Assembly (NCBI GenBank): GCA_009391835.1
Contig: QWJF01000002.1
Coordinates: 20,959 to 84,958 of the forward strand
Source of the DNA: Chloroflexota bacterium
GTDB lineage: Bacteria; Chloroflexota; Anaerolineae; Anaerolineales; UBA11579
Reading direction: 5' to 3'
Length of the DNA stretch: 64,000 nt
Of this stretch, positions 2,884-14,726 are shown one piece after another. Below the pieces are notes generated by a model. That model was not told the origin of the DNA, did not search any database, and saw nothing but the letters and a program-made list of their open reading frames with translations. Position 1 is the stretch's first letter, and each line of letters begins with the position of its first letter. Position numbers and translations under genes: made by a program.

Positions 2884-3834
2884 TCAGTCGCGAAGGGCGC
2901 GACCGGTGAGATGCAGGAAAACGGCTTCCAGATTTGGTTCTTCGATCTTGATACTGCGGATGCGGCCATTGGCCTTGTCTATTGTGGAGACGATTTTGCT
3001 CAGCACTGCATTGGCTTCCTGTGCCTGCAGGATTAATTCGTCGTCCTCAATGAGCGCCTGGTTGACACCAGCAATCTTTTGCAGGGCGGCGCTGAGAGCG
3101 GCATAGTCCAATCCATCGGGTTCCAGGCCGATGCGCACTATGTCGAATTCACCAACAGTTTTGGTCAATTCACTTTGGCTTCCAAGGGCAATCAACTGGC
3201 CGTGGTCAATGATGCCGATACGGTTGCTGAGCTCTTCGGCCTCTTCCATGTAATGGGTGGTGTAGAGAACGGTGAGGCCGCTCTGGTTCAACTCCATCAC
3301 GGTATCCAGGATGCGCCGACGGCTCTGGGGATCGATCCCGACGGTGGGTTCGTCCATGTAGAGCACTTTTGGCTGGTGGAGCAGGCCAACGGCGATATTG
3401 ATGCGCCGTTTCATGCCTCCGGAATAGGTTTCCACCTTGGCATCAGCGCGTTCAGCCAACCCGGCTACTTCGAGAACGGCGGCGATGCGTTCCTGCAGGT
3501 AGCTGCCGCGCAAGCCATACATCTTGCCCCAGAAGGCCAAATTCTCGCGGGCGCTCAGTGTGGGGTAAAGGGCAATTTCCTGGGGAACCACGCCAATGGT
3601 TTGTTTTACCGCTTCGGCATCGCTAAGTACGGAATGTCCGTCGATATAGGCCTGGCCCTGGGTGGGCTTCAGCAGGCCACTGAGCATGGAGATGGTGGTG
3701 GTTTTTCCGGCCCCATTGGGACCCAACAAGCTGAGGATTTCCCCGCGCTGAATCTCGAAACTCACGCCGTTCACGGCGTTAATCTCATCGAAGGATTTAT
3801 GCAGGTTTTCGGCGTGTAGGATTGTGTCGGTCAT
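2884..3834 (-). CDS. ABC transporter ATP-binding protein
   Basis: Walker A GPNGAGKTT, signature YSGGMKRR, Walker B VLYMDEPTVGIDP. Confidence 0.95.
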   Translation of the reverse strand: MTDTILHAENLHKSFDEINAVNGVSFEIQRGEILSLLGPNGAGKTTTISMLSGLLKPTQGQAYIDGHSVLSDAEAVKQTIGVVPQEIALYPTLSARENLAFWGKMYGLRGSYLQERIAAVLEVAGLAERADAKVETYSGGMKRRINIAVGLLHQPKVLYMDEPTVGIDPQSRRRILDTVMELNQSGLTVLYTTHYMEEAEELSNRIGIIDHGQLIALGSQSELTKTVGEFDIVRIGLEPDGLDYAALSAALQKIAGVNQALIEDDELILQAQEANAVLSKIVSTIDKANGRIRSIKIEEPNLEAVFLHLTGRALRD

Positions 3835-3961: not shown

Positions 3962-5389
3962 ATGTCTAAGAAACTGTACGCATTTGCACTTATTTTGTTG
4001 CTGCTGACTGCCTGTGGAGCAGGCGACCAAATCTCGCAAGAGGACCAAGTGGCCACGCTGGTGGCTGAGGCGCTGATGGCTGAGGCCGAATCGGCAGCCA
4101 GTGGGGAGCTGGAAGCCGCGACTGAGGAAGCACCAGAGCCTGACGCAGGTGCCTATGGAAGTTGCACCAATGCGGAATTGTTCACCGTGGTGTATGTTAA
4201 GGATGGCAATGTATGGATTTGGCTCGAGGGTGGAGAGAATTTTGCGCTGACGGATAGCGGCGACGTGACAGAAGTGAAAGTGTCGGACGACGGCTGCCGG
4301 ATCGCTTATGCGAAAGATGTGGTCAACCCCAGCTTCGATACCGATGTGGACCAGTTTTCCTCTCCGACACTGCTTGAGTTGTGGGTGGTGAATAGCGACG
4401 GGAGCAACAATCAGCCCCTAGTGGAGACCGATTTTCTGTTTGGCTTGCCGCTAGACGAGGGCATGACCAGCCCATCGATATACCGGTTTGCCTGGCAGCC
4501 GGGCAGCCACACGCTGGCTTTTAGCACCCGGGTGCAGACGTATGGCTTGGTGGTGTTTGACGACATCAACCTGGTGGATGCCAATACGGGCGCGATGAGC
4601 ACACTGCGAGCGCCGGGTGAGGGTGGCAACTTCTTCTTCTCCCCGGATGGCAGCCAAGTGGCATATTCCAGGTCAACCTCGATTAACGCCATTAACACGG
4701 ACGGGAGCAACTTGCGCGAGGAAATGATAACTTTCCCGTACGTTATCACCTACAGTGAATTTTTATATTACCCACCGGTGCATTGGAGCCTGGACGGCAG
4801 TTCGATCATGGTGGCCGTACCGCCAGAGGATGGCCTGGCGCCCACAGAGAGCGGCTTGCCACCCGAAACGGGACTGTGGTGGATCCCGCTGGATGGCACC
4901 CCACCCTATATGCCCGGGTCCGTACAAGCTGAATGGTTTGCCGTGCAAACGGCACAGTTCTCGCCAGACAATGGCCGGGTAGCGTATTTGCGCCCAGTGG
5001 GGGAAACAGGCAGCGGCCAGCGCGAACTGGTGATCGCATTGAGCGATGGCAGCAATGAATCGGCGCAGATCCAGGAGGAAGGGATTCTGGTTGGGGCTTG
5101 GTCGCTGGATAGCAACCAACTAGTCTTTTGGTTCCAGGGGCCGGATGGCAGTCCGGAGATTCGCCTCTTGAATGCCGCCGATGGCAGCGTCACGCCCGGC
5201 AACAGCTTGACCCAGTTCCAGGCCAATGTGGCCTACTTCCATTGGGCGTTGCCGGATGCTTACCTGCAGGTGCGCTACCGTGGGGCGGACGAGTTTATCG
5301 AGCTGAGCTTGATAAATCTGGACGGCACCGGGGTGATTCTCGATGCCTACCAGGGGCCACCTCTCCAAGTGGATAGTAGCGCTCCGTGA
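3962..5389 (+). CDS. putative lipoprotein with TolB/WD40-like beta-propeller repeats
   Basis: Lipobox-like LLLLTACG; repeated 'FSPDGSQVAYSR', 'FSPDNGRVAYLR' blades. Confidence 0.8.
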   Translation: MSKKLYAFALILLLLTACGAGDQISQEDQVATLVAEALMAEAESAASGELEAATEEAPEPDAGAYGSCTNAELFTVVYVKDGNVWIWLEGGENFALTDSGDVTEVKVSDDGCRIAYAKDVVNPSFDTDVDQFSSPTLLELWVVNSDGSNNQPLVETDFLFGLPLDEGMTSPSIYRFAWQPGSHTLAFSTRVQTYGLVVFDDINLVDANTGAMSTLRAPGEGGNFFFSPDGSQVAYSRSTSINAINTDGSNLREEMITFPYVITYSEFLYYPPVHWSLDGSSIMVAVPPEDGLAPTESGLPPETGLWWIPLDGTPPYMPGSVQAEWFAVQTAQFSPDNGRVAYLRPVGETGSGQRELVIALSDGSNESAQIQEEGILVGAWSLDSNQLVFWFQGPDGSPEIRLLNAADGSVTPGNSLTQFQANVAYFHWALPDAYLQVRYRGADEFIELSLINLDGTGVILDAYQGPPLQVDSSAP

Positions 5390-5419: not shown

Positions 5420-5589
5420 GACAGTTTCGCGGCGATGGCGGCGGATATTCTTTGGCGCGACAATCCCCCTATGTCCAGGGTCTGGTATCCGGACCTGCGG
5501 TTGAATTGAGCTGGGTAAATATTGATGGGATCGGGATCGTGATTGATGAAGTGGCGGGCTTCTCGGCGCTCTTTGATATCGCCAATTAA
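5420..5589 (+). pseudogene. degenerate C-terminal fragment resembling the preceding beta-propeller lipoprotein
   Basis: Frame-1 reading QFRGDGGGYSLARQSPYVQGLVSGPAVELSWVNIDGIGIVIDEVAGFSALFDIAN* resembles the C-terminus of the 3962-5389 product (VRYRGADEFIELSLINLDGTGVILDAYQGPP); preceded by in-frame TGA with no obvious start. Confidence 0.4.
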
Positions 5590-5691: not shown

Positions 5692-6192
5692 ATGAACGCT
5701 GAGCAACGACCTTCTTCCTTTAAGAGAGCTAAATCGCGCGGGCAGGGCATGGTGGAATTCGCCCTGGTTTTGCCGATGCTGCTGTTAATTGTGTACGGCC
5801 TGTTTGAGGTTGGGAGGATGACCTACATTTATTTCAGCGTGGTGACGGCCAGCCGCGAAGCCGCTCGCTATGGCGTTGCCGTGGACGAGAGCGGTTCCGG
5901 GACACCCCAATACATTGATTGCGCAGCGATCAGAACCGCGGCCAAGAATTTCGGCTCGATTGCCGGAATTCAGGATGCGGATATCTCGATTACCTATGAT
6001 CGGGGTCCGGGCGGCGCGGCGCTGGGCAGCTGCCCAGTTGCGGCGGAAAGCCTGCTGTTGGGCGACCGGATCATTGTGCAGGTCACTGGTTATTTTGCGC
6101 CGGGACCGGCGATCCCGTTGTTTAACTTTCCCTCCTTCACGCTAAGCTCTACAACGCGGCGCACCATTGTTAAAGAAGTTTCCTTAGAGTAG
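5692..6192 (+). CDS. TadE-like pilus/secretion-associated membrane protein
   Basis: 166 aa; 'RGQGMVEFALVLPMLLLIVYGLFEVGRMTYIYFSVVTASREAARYG' TadE-type N-terminus. Confidence 0.88.
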   Translation: MNAEQRPSSFKRAKSRGQGMVEFALVLPMLLLIVYGLFEVGRMTYIYFSVVTASREAARYGVAVDESGSGTPQYIDCAAIRTAAKNFGSIAGIQDADISITYDRGPGGAALGSCPVAAESLLLGDRIIVQVTGYFAPGPAIPLFNFPSFTLSSTTRRTIVKEVSLE

Positions 6193-6213
6193 CCAGGCAA
6201 CCCAGAGAAAAGC

Positions 6214-7434
6214 ATGACGAAGCTTATAAAGAAAACCGAAACGGGCCAGGCAATCGCCTTGTTGGTGTTGATGCTTGTGGGGATGATTGGCATTGTGGGG
6301 GTGGCGATTGACGGGGGCGATCTATTCCAGGAGCGCAGAAGCTCACAAAATGCGGCAGATAACGCGGCGCTATCTGGCGCGCAGGCGCTGTGCACGGGCG
6401 GCAACCCGGTCACTTCGGCTTTTGCATCGGCATTCGCCAACGGTTATGACAATGACCTGGCGACCAATTTTGTGACAGTGAACAACCCACCCAGCCAGGG
6501 AGCTTTCCTGGGGAACGCGGAATACGTAGAAGTTAAGATCACATCAACGCGGGAGCCGGGGTTCTCCCAACTTGTATTCTCCGGCCCATTTCAAACCAGC
6601 GTGTATAGCCTGGCTCACTGCGCGCCAGCCGCCATTGAGCCCGTGGGCGATTACGGCATCCTGGCATTGAACCCTTCGGACAAGGACGCCTTTAAGAACA
6701 ACGGAAACGGCACGCTCAAGATGACGGGCGGCGGCGTGTATGTGAATTCGAATCATGCCAGCATGGCGATGGTGACCGCGGGCAATGGGGTGATTATTGC
6801 GCCGGACATTAAACTCGTGGGGGGATATACAGAGGGCAGCCCAGGTAGCATCAGCCCCACGCCGACCACAGGCGTGCCAGCGCTGAGCGACCCTCTGGCG
6901 GAGGTGCAGGAACCCACGAATCCGGGCGGGACCTGCACAACGGTTGATATGAATTCGGGCAGCCAGACCATTGACCCGGGACTGTATTGCTCGATCACGG
7001 TGAAAGGCGGGGCACTGACGATGAACCCGGGCGTGTATTACATAAAGCCGGGCAACATGGACGTCAATAAGGGGTCGGTTAGCGGAAACGGGGTGATGAT
7101 CTTTATGGACGGGGGCCAGATCAGCCTTTCGGGTGGGGATTTCAATTTGAGCGCGCCGAGCTCCGGGAGCTATAAGGGGATGGCGATCTTCATGAAGCGC
7201 AGCAGTGCGCAGCCGATTGTGATCACGGCCAATGCGAGCTCAACGATCACGGGGACGATTTATGGGCCGGCTTCGGAATTGGTTTTGGCCGGCTCGGGCA
7301 GCGCGAATCCGCTGCATTCGCAAGTGATTGTCAGTTTGGTGAAGGTTTCCGGAAGCGCGGCCCTTGAGATTGCTTACGATCCGGACGAAAACTACAAACT
7401 TTCTTCGCCTGCACTGGTTGAACTGATCAACTAG
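6214..7434 (+). CDS. TadG-like protein with repetitive beta-rich C-terminal domain
   Basis: 406 aa; 'TGQAIALLVLMLVGMIGIVGVAIDGGDLFQERRSSQNAADNAALSGAQALC' TadE/G-like N-terminus followed by Gly/Ser-rich beta-repeat region. Confidence 0.85.
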   Translation: MTKLIKKTETGQAIALLVLMLVGMIGIVGVAIDGGDLFQERRSSQNAADNAALSGAQALCTGGNPVTSAFASAFANGYDNDLATNFVTVNNPPSQGAFLGNAEYVEVKITSTREPGFSQLVFSGPFQTSVYSLAHCAPAAIEPVGDYGILALNPSDKDAFKNNGNGTLKMTGGGVYVNSNHASMAMVTAGNGVIIAPDIKLVGGYTEGSPGSISPTPTTGVPALSDPLAEVQEPTNPGGTCTTVDMNSGSQTIDPGLYCSITVKGGALTMNPGVYYIKPGNMDVNKGSVSGNGVMIFMDGGQISLSGGDFNLSAPSSGSYKGMAIFMKRSSAQPIVITANASSTITGTIYGPASELVLAGSGSANPLHSQVIVSLVKVSGSAALEIAYDPDENYKLSSPALVELIN

Positions 7435-7538
7435 CCATCTATCAGTTAGCTGGCCTACAAGGTGGCCGGGATTTCGGGGGAAATCACCCATTGGTACTAG
7501 TGAAGCGGCTACACAGCCCAGGCAATTCCAGATTGGGC

Positions 7539-7566
7539 TTGCACTTTTGAAAGTTCGCTGTATCAT
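7539..7566 (+). promoter_or_regulatory. putative sigma70-type promoter (copy 1 of a duplicated promoter/leader)
   Basis: TTGCAC (7539-7544), 16-bp spacer, TATCAT (7561-7566); spacer and downstream leader closely match 9047-9141. Confidence 0.6.
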
Positions 7567-7687
7567 ATAAAGCGAACGGTCGAAAAACGATTTGCCGCGA
7601 GTGGATTTTAACCCGTATGTTGGTTAAGACCAGTCTGCGCAAATCGGTAGGCGCTGAGTTGAGCGAGGCCGGCGACCAGAAATTGCC

Positions 7688-8923
7688 ATGAAGAACCTCA
7701 CACGAAAATCCGAATCGGGACAAGCCATCGTTCTACTGGTGCTGTTGCTGGTGGGCATGATCGGCATCGTGGGGCTGGCGATTGACGGCGGCAATGTTTT
7801 CCAGGAGCGCAGGCGATCTCAAAACGCGGCGGACAATGCGGCGCTGGCGGGGGCGCTGGCCTTGTGCGAAGGGGACAATCCGCTTACCGCTGCCTTTGCT
7901 TCTACATTTAACAATGGCTTTGATAATGACCAGGTTACCAATTTCGTAACGGTGAACAACCCGCCGAGCCAGGGACCCAATTCCGGCGATAGTGAATTTG
8001 TTGAAGTAAGCATCCGTTCTATCCAAGGAGCCTCTTTTTCATCGCTTGTGTTTTCGGGTGTATTGGAGTCAACGTCTCGAGCGGTTGGGCATTGCCAAGC
8101 GACGACCGGAAGCGGCATTGGGGATGGAAATGGGCTCATAGCGCTGGAAGATGATAAAGACAAAGCGATTCGCTCAACCTCATCCGGGTTAATTAAAGTG
8201 AATGGAGGCGGGATATTCTCCAATTCGAGCGCCTCCAATGGTTTATTTGTTTCCGGATCGGGAGATATTGAGGCAGATACTACGATTGAAGTGGTTGGGA
8301 ATTATGAAAGTTCGGGATCAGGGGCTTTTAATCCGACGCCGATCGCCGGCGTGCCTGCAATCACTGATCCATTGGCTGAAGTGCCTGAGCCGACAAAGCC
8401 CGGGGGCGCCTGCATTGACTTCAATCATGGCAGCAACTCAAATGTCACCATCAATCCTGGGAAGTATTGCAAGATTACGGTTACGAGCAATGGCAATGTA
8501 ACTATGAATCCGGGTGTTTATTATGTGGAACAGGAAGTGGCTGTTACCGGAGGAGGGGATCTTAGCGGCAGCGGGGTAATGATCTACATGGAGAGCAAGG
8601 AAATCAAACTAACCGGAAACGGCGATCTAAACATTAGTGCGCCAACCAGCGGCACTTATGCCGGGATGGTGATCTTTATGGGCCGTGCCAACAATACCTC
8701 GATTGAATTGACGGGCTATGGCGGGCTGATCAGCACGGGAACGATTTACGGGCCAGCTGCGACTTTCAAGATCACGGGGAGCGGGAGTTCGAACTCAATC
8801 AATTCCCAGGTGATTGTCAGCGAAGTCGAAAACACAGGCAACGGGAGCCTCATCGTGAATTACGATGCAGCGGAAAACTACGGGGGCGGTGCGGGCAGCT
8901 CGGTTATCAATTTGGCAGAATAA
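7688..8923 (+). CDS. TadG-like protein with repetitive beta-rich C-terminal domain (paralog of 6214-7434)
   Basis: 411 aa; same N-terminus 'SGQAIVLLVLLLVGMIGIVGLAIDGGNVFQERRRSQNAADNAALAGALALC' and same C-terminal pattern (NPGVYYVEQEVAVTGGGDLSGSGVMIYM...). Confidence 0.85.
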   Translation: MKNLTRKSESGQAIVLLVLLLVGMIGIVGLAIDGGNVFQERRRSQNAADNAALAGALALCEGDNPLTAAFASTFNNGFDNDQVTNFVTVNNPPSQGPNSGDSEFVEVSIRSIQGASFSSLVFSGVLESTSRAVGHCQATTGSGIGDGNGLIALEDDKDKAIRSTSSGLIKVNGGGIFSNSSASNGLFVSGSGDIEADTTIEVVGNYESSGSGAFNPTPIAGVPAITDPLAEVPEPTKPGGACIDFNHGSNSNVTINPGKYCKITVTSNGNVTMNPGVYYVEQEVAVTGGGDLSGSGVMIYMESKEIKLTGNGDLNISAPTSGTYAGMVIFMGRANNTSIELTGYGGLISTGTIYGPAATFKITGSGSSNSINSQVIVSEVENTGNGSLIVNYDAAENYGGGAGSSVINLAE

Positions 8924-9046
8924 GCAACTGGGCATAGATCAGCCTTAATTCCCATCTCATGGTTGAATTTCCAATTATTCAAAAAAATCCAATCTCGTTA
9001 GAAACATAAAAAAACAACAAACTTGCAAGGGTGAACAAATTGGTAC

Positions 9047-9074
9047 TTGCATTTTTGAAAGTTCATGGTATTAT
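9047..9074 (+). promoter_or_regulatory. putative sigma70-type promoter (copy 2 of a duplicated promoter/leader)
   Basis: TTGCAT (9047-9052), 16-bp spacer, TATTAT (9069-9074); shared TTTTGAAAGTTC spacer and CGGTCGAAAAACGATTTG leader with copy 1. Confidence 0.6.
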
Positions 9075-9207
9075 ATTGGTCGAAAGCGGTCGAAAAACGA
9101 TTTGTTGAGAGTAGATTTTAGCCCATATATTGGGGTGAAATCTACTATTGCCCTAAATATAGGGGCATTTACAGAGGACAAATCGACAGACTGCCGAGAA
9201 AAACACA

Positions 9208-9981
9208 ATGTTGATGGCTGAAACAGCAACTTCCACTTCAAATTCCGGGCTGCAAGCTCCGGGACTTGATCTTGACGCGGTGCAGCAGCTGAGCGACCAG
9301 CGCGTGGTGCTAGTGGTGGAGGACGACCCGGATACGCTCAATTTGCTGAAGCTCACGCTGCGGCGGGCGGGCATGAACGTGGTGGGCGCGCTGGATGGCA
9401 AGCAGGCCATTCGCAAGTGGGGGGAGACCAACCCGAACATCGTGCTGCTGGATCTGATGATGCCCGAGATGGATGGCTGGGAAACGCTGGGCCAACTGCG
9501 CACGATTACGGACGCACCGATCATTATTCTTTCGGCACTCAGCCAAAATGAGAACATTGTGCGCGGCCTTGAAGAAGGCGCAGATGATTATGTGACCAAA
9601 CCCTTCCAAAGCACGGAAGTGGTGGCACGGGTGGAGGCGGCGCTGCGGCGCTCCGGCCCCAAGGTTGAAGCCACGAAGCTGCTCTTCCCGGACCACGAGC
9701 TCTCCATTGATCTGGAAACCCACCAGGTGACGCTGAAAGGCGAGAGCATCGAATTGACGCCGCGTGAATTTGAAGTGTTGGCGGCGCTGGCCAAGCGGCA
9801 TCCGAAACCGGTGGCTTACCAGACGATCGCTGCAGAGATTTGGGGCGATGACAACGACAAAATTCGCGAACGTATTAAATGGATCGTTTACCTGCTGCGC
9901 CAGAAGATTGAACAGAATCCCAGTGATCCCAAGCTGATTGTGAACAAAGTGCGCTACGGATACCAGTTGGCGGCCGAATAA
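9208..9981 (+). CDS. OmpR-type response regulator (receiver + winged helix)
   Basis: 257 aa; receiver 'VVLVVEDDPDTLNLLKLTLRRAG...NIVLLDLMMPEMDGWETL...ADDYVTKPF', C-terminal wHTH 'IELTPREFEVLAALAKRH...RYGYQL'. Confidence 0.93.
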   Translation: MLMAETATSTSNSGLQAPGLDLDAVQQLSDQRVVLVVEDDPDTLNLLKLTLRRAGMNVVGALDGKQAIRKWGETNPNIVLLDLMMPEMDGWETLGQLRTITDAPIIILSALSQNENIVRGLEEGADDYVTKPFQSTEVVARVEAALRRSGPKVEATKLLFPDHELSIDLETHQVTLKGESIELTPREFEVLAALAKRHPKPVAYQTIAAEIWGDDNDKIRERIKWIVYLLRQKIEQNPSDPKLIVNKVRYGYQLAAE

Positions 9982-9982
9982 G

Positions 9983-12766
9983 ATGTCTGGATTACGCCGC
10001 ATCTTCTTCGCCCTGATAATTGTGTCCGTGCTTACCACGGGCGCTTATAGCGTTGCAGAGGCCTGGAACTGCAGCTAATACAGTTTCCGCGTTCAGCAGG
10101 ATGGGACGGTGCAAGTAGAGAATCGTTCTTCCAATAACGAACCGGAACAATTTGGCCGCGTCTATATCAATGGCGACCTGAAGGAAACTTTTTATGTGCC
10201 CGCTTTACCGGCTGGCACGAATTGGCAGACTATCGGAACGGTGAGTGTGCCCAGTTCCGGTTACTGGACTTGGGAAGTTCGGGGCACCAAAGACTGCAGA
10301 GACAACGGCAGCCACGACAGCCCGACGCCAACGCCCACCAGCACCCCGGTAACGCCGACGCCGACCAACACCCCGGTAACTCCCACTGCGACCAATACTC
10401 CGGTTACGCCAAGCGCGACTCACACGCCTGCTTTTACACCGACTGCGACAAATTGCCCTGACGGTGACGACGATGACGATGATGATGATGACGATGACGA
10501 TAACGGTTGCAAACCTACCAAAACGCCCACACCCACAAACACGTCCATTCCATCGCTTACACCCACGGTTGTAGATTACAACCCGTCCTGCGCGGATATC
10601 GGTGTGGGGTCCCGGGAAACTAAACTCGAACCGGTTAGCAGCGGGACGTTCAGCTTGGGCGATGGGCAAACCGTTGCGGTGTCCGTATCTGGTTCCTCCT
10701 TTAATTGGAATTCAACGACGGCAATTCTGGCGGTGATTGTTAAGGGGGGGCCGGACGCAAACATTTACAACTACACACCCGGTGGCTCGTTTGGTGATTC
10801 CGGGTTGCACGCGCCGATCAACCCGAGCAACGGCAATCCGTACGGCTTGAGCCATATTTCATTCTGCTACAACTCGCCCACCTCAACTCCCGTAGCCAGC
10901 AACACACCGACGGCCACCCCGACCGCCACGCTGACTGCGACCCCAACACCCACGGCGACATTTACCCTGACGCCGAGCAATACACCTACAAATACGCCGA
11001 CACCGTCGAATACACCCACGCCAAGCAACACACCCACGAACACGCCGACGCCGTCGAATACGCCAACACCTACGAATACAGCGACGAATACTCCTACACC
11101 GACCAACACGCCGACCCCGTCGAATACGCCGACGCCCAGCAACACACCGACGAATACGCCAACCTTCACCCCGACGCCGAGCAATACGCCGACGCCAACC
11201 AATACTCCGACGCCAAGCAATACGCCGACGCCCAGCAACACACCGACGCACACACCGACGAACACAGCCACGCCGTCGAATACTCCAACGCCGACCAATA
11301 CCGCGACCCCGACGAACACGCCGACCAGTACGGCGACGTTTACACCGACACCGAGCAACACGCCGACACCAAGCAACACACCGACACCGACCAACACACC
11401 GACGCCGACCATTACGCCTACCAACACTGCGACCTTTACTCCTACTCCAACAAATACGCCTACAAATACCGCGACTCCGACCAATACGGCCACGCCGAGT
11501 AATACGCCAACCCCGACAAATACGGCAACATTTACCCCGACGCCGACGAATACTCCGACAAACACAGCGACCCCGTCGAATACACCAACGCCAAGCAATA
11601 CGCCCACGCCGAGCAGCACGCCGACGAATACGGCCACCCCGAGCAATACGCCAACGCCGTCTAACACACCGACGCCGAGCAATACACCCACGCCAACGAA
11701 TACGGCTACCAGCACGCCTACAAATACGCCAACGCCGAGCAATACACCTACGCCGAGTAACACGCCGACGCCGACCAATACATCGACGCCAACGCCGACG
11801 AATACGCCGACCAATACGGCTACCAGCACACCGACGAACACGCCGACGCCGACCTTTACACCGACACCGAGCAATACGCCGACGTCGACCTTTACACCGA
11901 CGCCGAGCAATACGCCGACGCCGACGAATACGCCGACACCGAGCAACACACCTACCAATACACCGACGAACACCGCGACGCCGACCAATACGGCTACGTC
12001 GACACCGACCAGTACTCCGACCAGTACTCCGACGAACACGCCGACTTCAACGAGCACACCGACGCCGAGCAATACGCCGACGCCGAGCACCACGCCGACG
12101 CCAACCAATACGGCTACGCCGACGCCAACCAATACGGCTACGCCGACGCCGACCAGTACCTTCACAGTGACACCGACTCCGTCCAATACGCCCACGCTGA
12201 CGGTTACCTCCACAGTCACCAACACGCCGACGCCGACGAATACCGCGACGCCGACCAATACGCCAACCGCCACACCGACTGTGTTCATCCCGGTGACGGG
12301 CAACGTAGGCCTGGTTACGCTCTGCTCCAATCAGACGGGTGTGCTGCGCTGGCAGGTCAACAACGTGAATGGCTTCGATATCAGCTTCGTCTGGTGGGTG
12401 GTGGGTGGTAGCGCTACGGGCGGCCCGATCAGCGTGCCGGCGGCCAGCATCACAGGCTTCCAGACGCCTGTAGACGGCGCCCTGCCGAACAACGTGGCGA
12501 TCATGTGGTATGACCCGGGCGACAGCACCTTCAAGACGGTGAGCGGCAGCAATGCGGGTGTATCCTGCGACGAAGCCGGCCCCACGCCCACGCCGACGGC
12601 CACGCCAGTGCCTGGTGTCCTTATCCCGGTAACTGGTATCGAACTGCCCGAAATTTTCCGGGAGAGCATGTTCCTGAATATGGGCATCGGTATCTTTGGC
12701 TTCGCCCTGATCCTGCTGGGCATTGGCATCCGGCTCGATCGAGATAAAGATGAGGAAGACGAATAA
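9983..12766 (+). pseudogene. giant Thr/Pro-repeat cell-surface protein with N-terminal signal peptide, IPVTG motifs and C-terminal TM; reading frame interrupted by one in-frame TAA at 10076-10078
   Basis: ATG 9983 encodes MSGLRRIFFALIIVSVLTTGAYSVAEAWNCS*, then the same frame continues [18 protein letters not shown]... through 885 aa (ORF track 10109-12766). Long ([10 protein letters not shown])n region, IPVTG at 12287-12301 and 12623-12637, terminal TM. Could be a nonsense mutation, base error or readthrough. Confidence 0.75.
10870..12280 (+). repeat. Low-complexity tandem repeat DNA encoding Thr/Pro/Asn/Ser-rich stalk
   Basis: Dense reiteration of acg/aca-ccg/cca-acg-aat/agc codons ([10 protein letters not shown]-like units). 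Confidence 0.9.
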
Positions 12767-12796
12767 GTTTCCAGCCAAATTAATCTAATCATGATA

Positions 12797-12832
12797 AAAC
12801 GGGGCATCTTCATTGGAGATGCCCCGTTTTTT
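12797..12832 (+). terminator. intrinsic terminator
   Basis: AAACGGGGCATCT-tcattgg-AGATGCCCCGTTTTTT. Confidence 0.9.
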
Positions 12833-12873
12833 ATAGGGCAGAATACAATTGCCCGATTCTTTGAGGTTTATCT

Positions 12874-13656
12874 ATGAGCAGCAAACGCAAAAAAGCCGAT
12901 CCCAATCGCCTAGTTATTGGCCTGATTTATGCGGGCTTTCTGATTGTGTTCTTCTCGTTGGGAAAAAGCATTGTTGATTTAGCCACGGACTCACCAAGCA
13001 CCATTGACTTGGCATCTGATGACCAGATCATTGAGGGCTTCCTGCCTGTTTACATTGTAGAAGATGCGGTGGCCAACCCGGATGTGGTAGCCGTGGGGCT
13101 GAGTGACCCGGCGGTGACGGCGCAGGCTTTCCCTACGCAATCGGCGGATGGGAGCCAGCCGGCCGCGGCGCGGGACCCGGGCAAGGCGCCGGATCGGATC
13201 GAGATCCCTTCAATTGCGCTGGAGGCTGTCATCGTTCCGGTTAATTTCGTGGAGTTCGAGTTTGAAGGTGAAAAGTACCAACAATGGCTGGCGCCCGAGA
13301 CTCGAGCCGTGGGGTGGCACTCTACTTCGGTTGGATTGGGCGTGGCAGGCAATACGGTGCTGAATGGCCACCACAATATCAAGGGCCAGGTATTCCGGGA
13401 CCTGTATCAGGTGCAGGTGGGGCAACAGATCAACCTTTATTCGGAAGGTGAGTTGTTTAGCTACGTGATCGTTTACACGGATATCCTTCCCGAGCGCAAC
13501 CAACCCCTTGAAGTGCGCCTGGCAAATGCTGAATGGATTGAGCCTACTGAGGATGAACGTATTACGTTGATCACGTGCTGGCCTTACGAGAGCAATACGC
13601 ACCGTGTGGTGGTGGTGGCGGTGCCCTTGCGCAACAGCGGGGCAGGTTCGGGGTAA
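12874..13656 (+). CDS. sortase (transpeptidase)
   Basis: 260 aa; N-terminal TM, catalytic His region 'VLNGHHN', catalytic Cys 'ITLITCWP', Arg 'NTHRVVVVAVP'. Confidence 0.9.
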   Translation: MSSKRKKADPNRLVIGLIYAGFLIVFFSLGKSIVDLATDSPSTIDLASDDQIIEGFLPVYIVEDAVANPDVVAVGLSDPAVTAQAFPTQSADGSQPAAARDPGKAPDRIEIPSIALEAVIVPVNFVEFEFEGEKYQQWLAPETRAVGWHSTSVGLGVAGNTVLNGHHNIKGQVFRDLYQVQVGQQINLYSEGELFSYVIVYTDILPERNQPLEVRLANAEWIEPTEDERITLITCWPYESNTHRVVVVAVPLRNSGAGSG

Positions 13657-13696
13657 TTCGACTTGATCTTGAGGAATGATTGTTAAATTAAACAGA

Positions 13697-13724
13697 AACT
13701 CCCCGCCTTCGAGCGGGGAGTTTT
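13697..13724. terminator. bidirectional intrinsic terminator between convergent sortase genes
   Basis: AACTCCCCGC-cttcga-GCGGGGAGTTTT. Confidence 0.8.
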
Positions 13725-13775
13725 GATATTGCAGTCCCTGGTTAGATTGGTCTTCGCTCGCTCAGCTATACCGGT

Positions 13776-14726
13776 TTACAAAGGGACTGCAACGATGAAC
13801 ACACGACCCCAGGTGCTGATGCCTTCGTTGGCAATGCAGGTCTGGAGAACGAGGGGATTATTGCTGTTGTACATGTTGTGGAAGAGCGTGGTGGCGCTCA
13901 GGGTTTCGCCGCTCTCCAGATCCACGAAGGTGGACTGGGTGGAATTGGGCTGAAGCGCCTGGTAGCGGTGGATGGATGAGATGCGGTAGCTGGCGGTGGA
14001 GCCGTCGCCATAGACCAATTTGATGGTCTGGCCATTGCTGAGGCTGAAAAAGTCGCTACCAGCCAAGTAATTGTGAGCCAGGAGGCCCAGGCTACCATAG
14101 TCGGCGGCCATGCCGAATTGAGTAACTTCATTGGCGTTGCCGGTGATATAGCCGGGATTGCTGCTGGGCTGGCTGCCGACTGCGAAGGCCAGCACGTCGT
14201 CTACATAAATTCCGCGCACTTGGTTGGACTTGCCGTTGGTGACTGACTGAATGAAGCTTTCGAGCGCATCAATTGTCTGAGCGGCGACTACGGCCTGAAC
14301 GGGCTCGCTGCCGCTGTTGCTGTCAGCCTGAGCGCTGGTGAGCTCCTGAGAAGCCTCTGCAGCGACTGCCTGGTCGGGAGAGGCTTCCTTTTCGAAAGAA
14401 ACTGTAAATGCGCTGCTGAGCGCCTCACCGACGTCCTGGCCGGCATCAGTTTGGGGAGCCTGGCTGAGGTCGTCCTGAGCGGCTGCGACTACTTCTACGC
14501 CTTCTGAAGCGGTTTCGTCGACAGTTACGAGGGTTTCAGTTTCGAGTTCAGCCTGCTGGCCTGTGGTGGGGGCTACCGGATCAGTGGCAGATACTGTATT
14601 ATTGATTGGGTTCTGGGCGGGCGCATCGACGGATGCTTCGGCCAAGACGGGTGTTACTGCAAAAAGCGCGCCCATGATGATTGCGCTTACGGTTGCTAGT
14701 AATGTGAGAATGCTGAGCGATTTCAT
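13776..14726 (-). CDS. secreted/membrane-anchored sortase-like domain protein with long low-complexity linker
   Basis: 316 aa; N-terminal signal/TM, acidic/Ala/Gln-rich linker, C-terminal sortase-like His (LLAHNYLAG), Cys (LVLQTCI), Arg (STWGRVFIVAVPL). Confidence 0.75.
   Translation of the reverse strand: MKSLSILTLLATVSAIIMGALFAVTPVLAEASVDAPAQNPINNTVSATDPVAPTTGQQAELETETLVTVDETASEGVEVVAAAQDDLSQAPQTDAGQDVGEALSSAFTVSFEKEASPDQAVAAEASQELTSAQADSNSGSEPVQAVVAAQTIDALESFIQSVTNGKSNQVRGIYVDDVLAFAVGSQPSSNPGYITGNANEVTQFGMAADYGSLGLLAHNYLAGSDFFSLSNGQTIKLVYGDGSTASYRISSIHRYQALQPNSTQSTFVDLESGETLSATTLFHNMYNSNNPLVLQTCIANEGISTWGRVFIVAVPL

Follow-up and report, generated by a model that had tools for sequence, protein, structure and literature searches.

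A stretch of 64,000 nucleotides from an Anaerolineales genome of the Chloroflexota (contig QWJF01000002.1, positions 20,959 to 84,958; the whole stretch is hereafter the window) probably carries two adjoining surface systems, namely a sortase-anchoring module and TadG minor pilins for a Tad pilus with its core genes at another site. The module consists of an orphan OmpR-family response regulator, a single Thr/Pro-rich substrate, the membrane-anchored sortase Srt1 and a second, secreted sortase of the YLP family; the Tad half is an ordinary Tad-tip gene set adjoining this interesting and recurrent two-sortase anchoring module. No paper on an Anaerolineae module combining an orphan regulator, one dedicated substrate and two sortases was found in the literature searched, and such a recurrent module is described here. 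The window comes from a genome bin of 1.68 Mb that is 83% complete (G000), and a genome of the sister genus (G017) served as reference for synteny and for the position of the Tad core. Profile searches and open reading frames (ORFs) recovered all the genes listed in a preliminary description of the locus where it had placed them, save for the start of the Thr/Pro gene. The extent of about 9 kb given there holds for the listed genes, but the block is slightly larger, as a beta-propeller gene (3962-5389) belongs to it upstream.

The membrane sortase and its substrate

Srt1 (12874-13656, forward strand) matches the sortase family PF04203 (E 2e-21; 76.5 bits against a cut-off of 26.6) and has the catalytic His, Cys and Arg residues, its GHHN, TCW and HR motifs being invariant in 11 orthologs. 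It shares the PF04203 fold family and these three residues with the class E (NF033747) and class C (NF033745) sortases but scores below both cut-offs, with 43.5 and 39.5 bits, respectively, against 160 bits in each case, and thus stands outside the curated classes. Its nearest named relatives are Anaerolineales metagenome-assembled genomes (MAGs) of Chloroflexota, and no relatives were found among viral contigs.

The gene of the Thr/Pro-rich surface protein (9983-12766, forward strand) encodes a signal peptide, a CARDB-like N-terminal domain, a long Thr/Pro region, a C-terminal domain and a sorting signal. The protein has the features of a sortase-anchored protein, i.e., a signal peptide, a C-terminal PxTG motif and a transmembrane segment, although its tail is acidic rather than basic and a stop codon interrupts the gene in the window. 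The C-terminal IPVTG motif (12623-12637, forward strand) is followed by about 14 residues, the transmembrane segment and the acidic tail, while an internal IPVTG motif (12287-12301, forward strand) is conserved in orthologs as [IV]P[IV][TS]G; two such motifs in one substrate are an unexpected feature. The true start of the gene is the ATG at 9983, one base past the stop of the regulator gene, and the signal peptide read from it matches those of the orthologs. The GTG at 10109 given as start in the preliminary description is an artefact of an in-frame TAA at 10076-10078, codon 32, which lies just past the signal peptide. At this position every ortholog read has an open frame, with varied residues, and past the TAA the frame of the window gene stays open to 12766, with the remaining ~895 codons conserved. 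In the bin and in the 10 sister genomes that have the locus, the C-terminal region of the substrate is encoded by one gene per genome. A hairpin resembling an intrinsic terminator, followed by a T-run, was read directly from the sequence between the substrate and Srt1 genes (12799-12834, forward strand).

The regulator gene is probably translationally coupled to that of the Thr/Pro protein. Srt1 would cleave the latter at its C-terminal IPVTG motif and attach it to the envelope, where it would serve as a stalk-like adhesin, and the secreted YLP sortase may act in the same pathway.

The secreted sortase

The second sortase (13776-14726, reverse strand), encoded convergently, is secreted, has His218, Cys297 and Arg308 as catalytic residues and is a clear member of sortase_YLP (NF053836), with 230.5 bits against a cut-off of 125. 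Its AlphaFold2 model is a confident sortase barrel with a predicted local distance difference test (pLDDT) score above 90, and its nearest folds are class C sortases. The sources reached give no description of the function of NF053836; the N-terminal PxTG motif of these proteins and their link to the Srt1 module are reported here.

This sorting-like motif, a second unexpected feature of the module, reads APTTG in the window (14559-14573, reverse strand). A PxTG motif stands behind the signal peptide in most of the YLP copies linked to Srt1, across several lineages, with the variants APVTG, TPLTG, APLTG, IPITG, VPVTG, IPVTG, and LPVTG, and it is missing from the YLP proteins of two loci (L081 and L082) and from four copies not linked to Srt1. 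Among 1117 ORFs of at least 150 aa in the neighbourhoods of sortase loci, this motif was matched 16 times near the N-terminus (residues 16-75), all 16 in YLP-family proteins, several of the matches being duplicates of one genome. Judged from these sequence comparisons, the motif is real. The AlphaFold2 model does not dock it in the active site of its own enzyme, where it may or may not act as a lid, and places it in a disordered segment (pLDDT about 42). From the match coordinates, the NF053836 model seems to cover the segment, to which the family name YLP may refer, and the curators of the family may have seen the motif. The YLP gene has no DNA match to plasmids.

It can be speculated, although this is rather unlikely, that Srt1 recognises this PxTG motif and processes the second sortase like one of its substrates. 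A cut between T and G would leave an N-terminal glycine, the type of nucleophile that resolves sortase acyl-enzymes, and the sortase would either be released or become joined to the Thr/Pro stalk at its IPVT end. If true, a sorting signal in mirror orientation would arm or tether a second sortase; a sorting-like motif in this N-terminal position lends itself to direct tests in vitro.

Two more sortase genes occur in the bin (G000:C30:13386-13886 and G000:C9:2205-2567), and no sorting-signal proteins were seen beside them in the neighbouring stretches read.

The orphan regulator, its promoter and its leader

The response regulator (9208-9981, forward strand) combines a receiver domain (PF00072) with a winged-helix effector domain (PF00486), as is typical of the OmpR/PhoB type. 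Its receiver domain is preceded by a GLDLD motif, in a form (G-x-DLD) common to the module regulators, except that of L048. With the regulator of the window, those of the other modules score 174-225 bits, as compared with 142 bits for the top-scoring OmpR-type protein of solved structure.

Upstream lies a conserved promoter (9046-9074, forward strand) in which a palindrome of the CTTGCA-N4-TGCAAG type overlaps the -35 region and is followed by the -10 box TATTAT. One copy per genome, located upstream of the regulator gene, was found in 10 of the 11 genomes searched, while the reversed-pattern control gave 0. At 3 mismatches no further copy was found in these genomes that would indicate a wider regulon. 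The transcript would begin with a strongly folding 5' leader (9080-9207, forward strand; z = -7.3). A consensus of three hairpins, with compensatory changes in 11 of 29 pairs, was obtained from a subset of five leader sequences. One conserved RNA fold for all leaders was rejected, since the sister leaders, folded one by one, give weaker and differing structures and the consensus comes from that subset only. That the leader is a known riboswitch was likewise rejected, no plausible Rfam match being found at E values up to 10. The leader occupies the position held in sister modules by riboswitches of the c-di-GMP-II class, the class II of riboswitches for cyclic di-GMP (c-di-GMP).

Riboswitches in related modules

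In the relatives, c-di-GMP-II-like aptamers are found in the leaders of regulator or substrate genes (L046, L088, L093, L094, L096, and L100), often in tandem and with terminator-like hairpins at the end. Directly upstream of the IPVTG gene of L100, a c-di-GMP-II-GAG riboswitch exceeds the Rfam gathering score, which places a member of the c-di-GMP-II families (RF01786/RF03169) upstream of a sister module. A covariance model of our own, built from 13 aptamer copies, places a switch upstream of response regulator or IPxTG genes in L046, L088, L093, L094, and L096, all of which are among its training members. It also independently finds two loci outside the training set (L074 and L085), directly before IPxTG/LPxTG genes.

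In Clostridioides difficile, two sortase-dependent adhesins and, for type IV pili, pilA1 are turned on through class II riboswitches (PMC6200980). The Chloroflexota modules are similar in that a riboswitch precedes the substrate or the regulator gene in the sister modules. They differ from the C. difficile system in their sortase family, in having an orphan response regulator inside the module and a second, secreted sortase, and in the IPVTG motif, and the window has no riboswitch. The likeness suggests that c-di-GMP steers sortase-dependent adhesins in Chloroflexota as in Clostridia. In the relatives, the module would form part of a c-di-GMP-dependent attachment programme with a riboswitch before regulator or substrate, whereas in the lineage of the window another conserved promoter and a structured leader stand in the riboswitch's place.

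On the Chloroflexota chromosome CP070764.1 (L085:5845-8336), three c-di-GMP-II-like aptamers stand in a row, each before an IPQTG/IPETG gene. In L082 (3453-3719, reverse strand), two tandem c-di-GMP-II-GAG-like aptamers lie upstream of a gene for a 1088-aa secreted protein near the sortase module.

The Tad-type genes and the Tad core

Upstream of the regulator lie genes for a TadE-like pseudopilin (5692-6192, forward strand; PF07811, E 1e-13) and for two TadG proteins, TadG1 (6214-7434, forward strand; PF13400, E 3e-10), a pseudopilin with a C-terminal beta-helix region, and TadG2 (7688-8923, forward strand; PF13400, E 3e-12), a probable Tad-pilus tip subunit. The matches to PF07811 and PF13400 are above the cut-offs and mark these proteins as pseudopilins of the Tad (Flp) type; sub-threshold matches to DUF7305 are also found in both TadG proteins. 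In the AlphaFold2 model of TadG2 (mean pLDDT 85.5), a long N-terminal helix is followed by a small alpha-beta domain resembling pilins and by a C-terminal beta-helix, the best matches among solved folds being weak (ice-binding proteins and the competence pilin ComZ). Structure prediction, which had been proposed as a check on the TadG C-termini and the sortases, thus returned a beta-helix for TadG2 beside the confident barrel of the second sortase.

Within each of the 11 genomes considered (the bin and the 10 of the sister genus that have the locus), PF13400 proteins of the large TadG type are exclusive to this locus, and the remaining weak matches to PF13400 are TadE/TadF-like proteins of ~150 aa. 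TadE lies outside the conserved unit, its ortholog in the sister genus being mostly at another site; the TadE of the window is 55% identical to the one at a separate site in G017.

The spacers after tadG1 (7435-7687) and after tadG2 (8924-9207) are copies of one promoter and leader, the diverged copy in front of tadG2 (7538-7687, forward strand) being 79% identical over 98 bp to the region upstream of the regulator. Comparison of the two spacers indicates a tandem duplication of tadG together with its downstream spacer.

TadEFG-type minor pilins have been proposed to form pilus tip complexes, and several kilLMN tip clusters can be found within one genome (PMC12075869). The proteins of the window resemble the TadEFG/KilLMN tips in the pilin-like N-terminus of TadE and TadG and in the large TadG with a modular C-terminal domain. 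They differ in that this domain is a beta-helix and that the gene lies beside a sortase module, and their role at the tip is predicted. TadG, here in two copies and together with TadE, would thus act as minor pilins, priming and capping a Tad pilus with its core genes at another place in the chromosome.

The usual Tad machinery, reported as absent in the preliminary description, is indeed missing from the locus, where neither the CpaF ATPase nor TadB/TadC was found, yet this does not make a core-less system. In G017, CpaB-, TadZ-, CpaF-, TadB-, and TadC-like core genes lie ~1 Mb from the locus by record coordinates, with a TadE/TadF-like pair at a third site, and CpaF and two T2SSF proteins are found in all 10 sister genomes with a linked TadG. 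The tad genes of one genome can thus be spread over three places, and a TadG found apart from the core is not necessarily the sign of a new system. The search of the whole bin for the core, also raised in the preliminary description, came back empty, with no T2SSE above the cut-off and no T2SSF. HPF and FolE, which come after the Tad core in G017, are likewise missing from it, and an assembly gap is probably the simpler reading of these gene inventories. FolE was detected in 4/4 control genomes, and in G008 and G021 it lies on the contig of the Tad core.

Distribution of the module

Srt1 orthologs with the same neighbours were found in 10 genomes of one sister genus, where the order is ABC transporter gene (reverse), beta-propeller, TadG, regulator, Thr/Pro protein, Srt1 (all forward) and YLP sortase (reverse). 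One of these, G021, resembles the window in having TadE and two TadG genes; it lacks a beta-propeller gene at this place, and its contig stops short of the YLP gene. TadG adjoins the sortase module in 11 genomes of two genera only. Among 57 Srt1-related loci of a GTDB collection, TadG occurs in seven only, all from the sister genus, and other genomes of the family and order have TadG homologs that do not stand next to an Srt1 ortholog. The module of regulator, substrate, Srt1 and YLP sortase, in part or whole, is found without TadG in L139, L046, L088, L093, L094, L096, L082, and L100. As a negative control, the window was compared with G017, and nearly all of it (0-64 kb) proved collinear with 759-835 kb there; linkage within the two genera is consequently weak evidence of joint function.

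In the MAGs of L093 and L096, the sortase module lies less than 10 kb from tmRNA and tRNA genes.

Alternative interpretations

The preliminary description had proposed a single appendage, in which TadG/TadE pseudopilins and the sortase-anchored Thr/Pro protein would together build a stalk or an anchored pilus that the sortase joins to the wall. What holds is a recurrent module of sortase and substrate that has an orphan regulator of its own; that the Tad-type proteins and the substrate act together is possible but supported by no more than local synteny. The close linkage in 11 genomes and the presence of the same conserved promoter before the regulator gene and before tadG2 in the window would favour such a composite. 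The promoter copy, though, is there because tadG and its downstream spacer were duplicated in tandem, and collinearity over 64 kb between the genera leads one to expect linkage without any functional tie. TadG has no sorting motif, every other lineage with the module lacks TadG beside it, and TadG is also found unlinked to the module. The co-occurrence across relatives on which the proposal was to be judged is hence seen in two genera and absent elsewhere, the scattering in related genomes being half of the outcome named as speaking against it, and a composite appendage is considered improbable. It is similarly doubtful that the TadE- and TadG-like proteins belong to a core-less, Tad-derived system in which they are exported by Sec to the membrane or surface and have ceased to be built into a pilus. 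Such a system would agree with the lack of T2SSE and T2SSF matches in the bin, but the incompleteness of the bin, the loss of HPF and FolE together with the core and the CpaF and T2SSF proteins of all the sister genomes with a linked TadG argue against it.

The least probable of these alternatives is that the module is a decaying remnant in this genome, for which the in-frame TAA at 10076, a relic of a second beta-propeller gene and the diverged TadG duplicate could be cited; the rest of the substrate gene, both sortase genes and the regulator gene have kept conserved open frames and intact catalytic residues, and a single-base assembly error is as likely a cause of the stop. Two adjoining systems, an anchoring module and Tad minor pilins, thus remain the preferred interpretation, with several points weighing against it. 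The stop codon after the signal peptide may render the module non-functional in this genome, or else the base may be an assembly error, and no Tad core was found in this bin. On the side of the riboswitches, c-di-GMP-II (RF01786/RF03169) has no match upstream of the regulator in the window or the sister genus, L093 reaches E 7e-7 but stays below the Rfam gathering scores, and the matches of our own model are mostly training sequences. Finally, anchoring of the substrate and control by the response regulator, as well as the tip position of TadG and a common service of both systems in surface attachment, are inferred. Read from sequence are the gene identities, the catalytic residues, the recurrence of the module, the single TadG type and substrate of each genome, the separate Tad core of the sister genus and the riboswitch matches in relatives.

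Flanking genes

The block is bordered by a gene for an ATP-binding cassette (ABC) transporter ATPase (2884-3834, reverse strand; PF00005), which is syntenic in the sister genus. Between it and the Tad-like genes lies the beta-propeller (PD40-like) gene with a lipobox (LTAC) mentioned above (3962-5389, forward strand; weak matches to PF07676 and PF00930), orthologs of which stand immediately before tadG in 9 of the 10 sister genomes. Behind it lies what is left of another beta-propeller gene, a decayed piece of its C-terminal part (5422-5559, forward strand; 31% identity over 48 aa by tblastn, E 1e-4), and in one sister genome (L034) two tandem beta-propeller copies are found.

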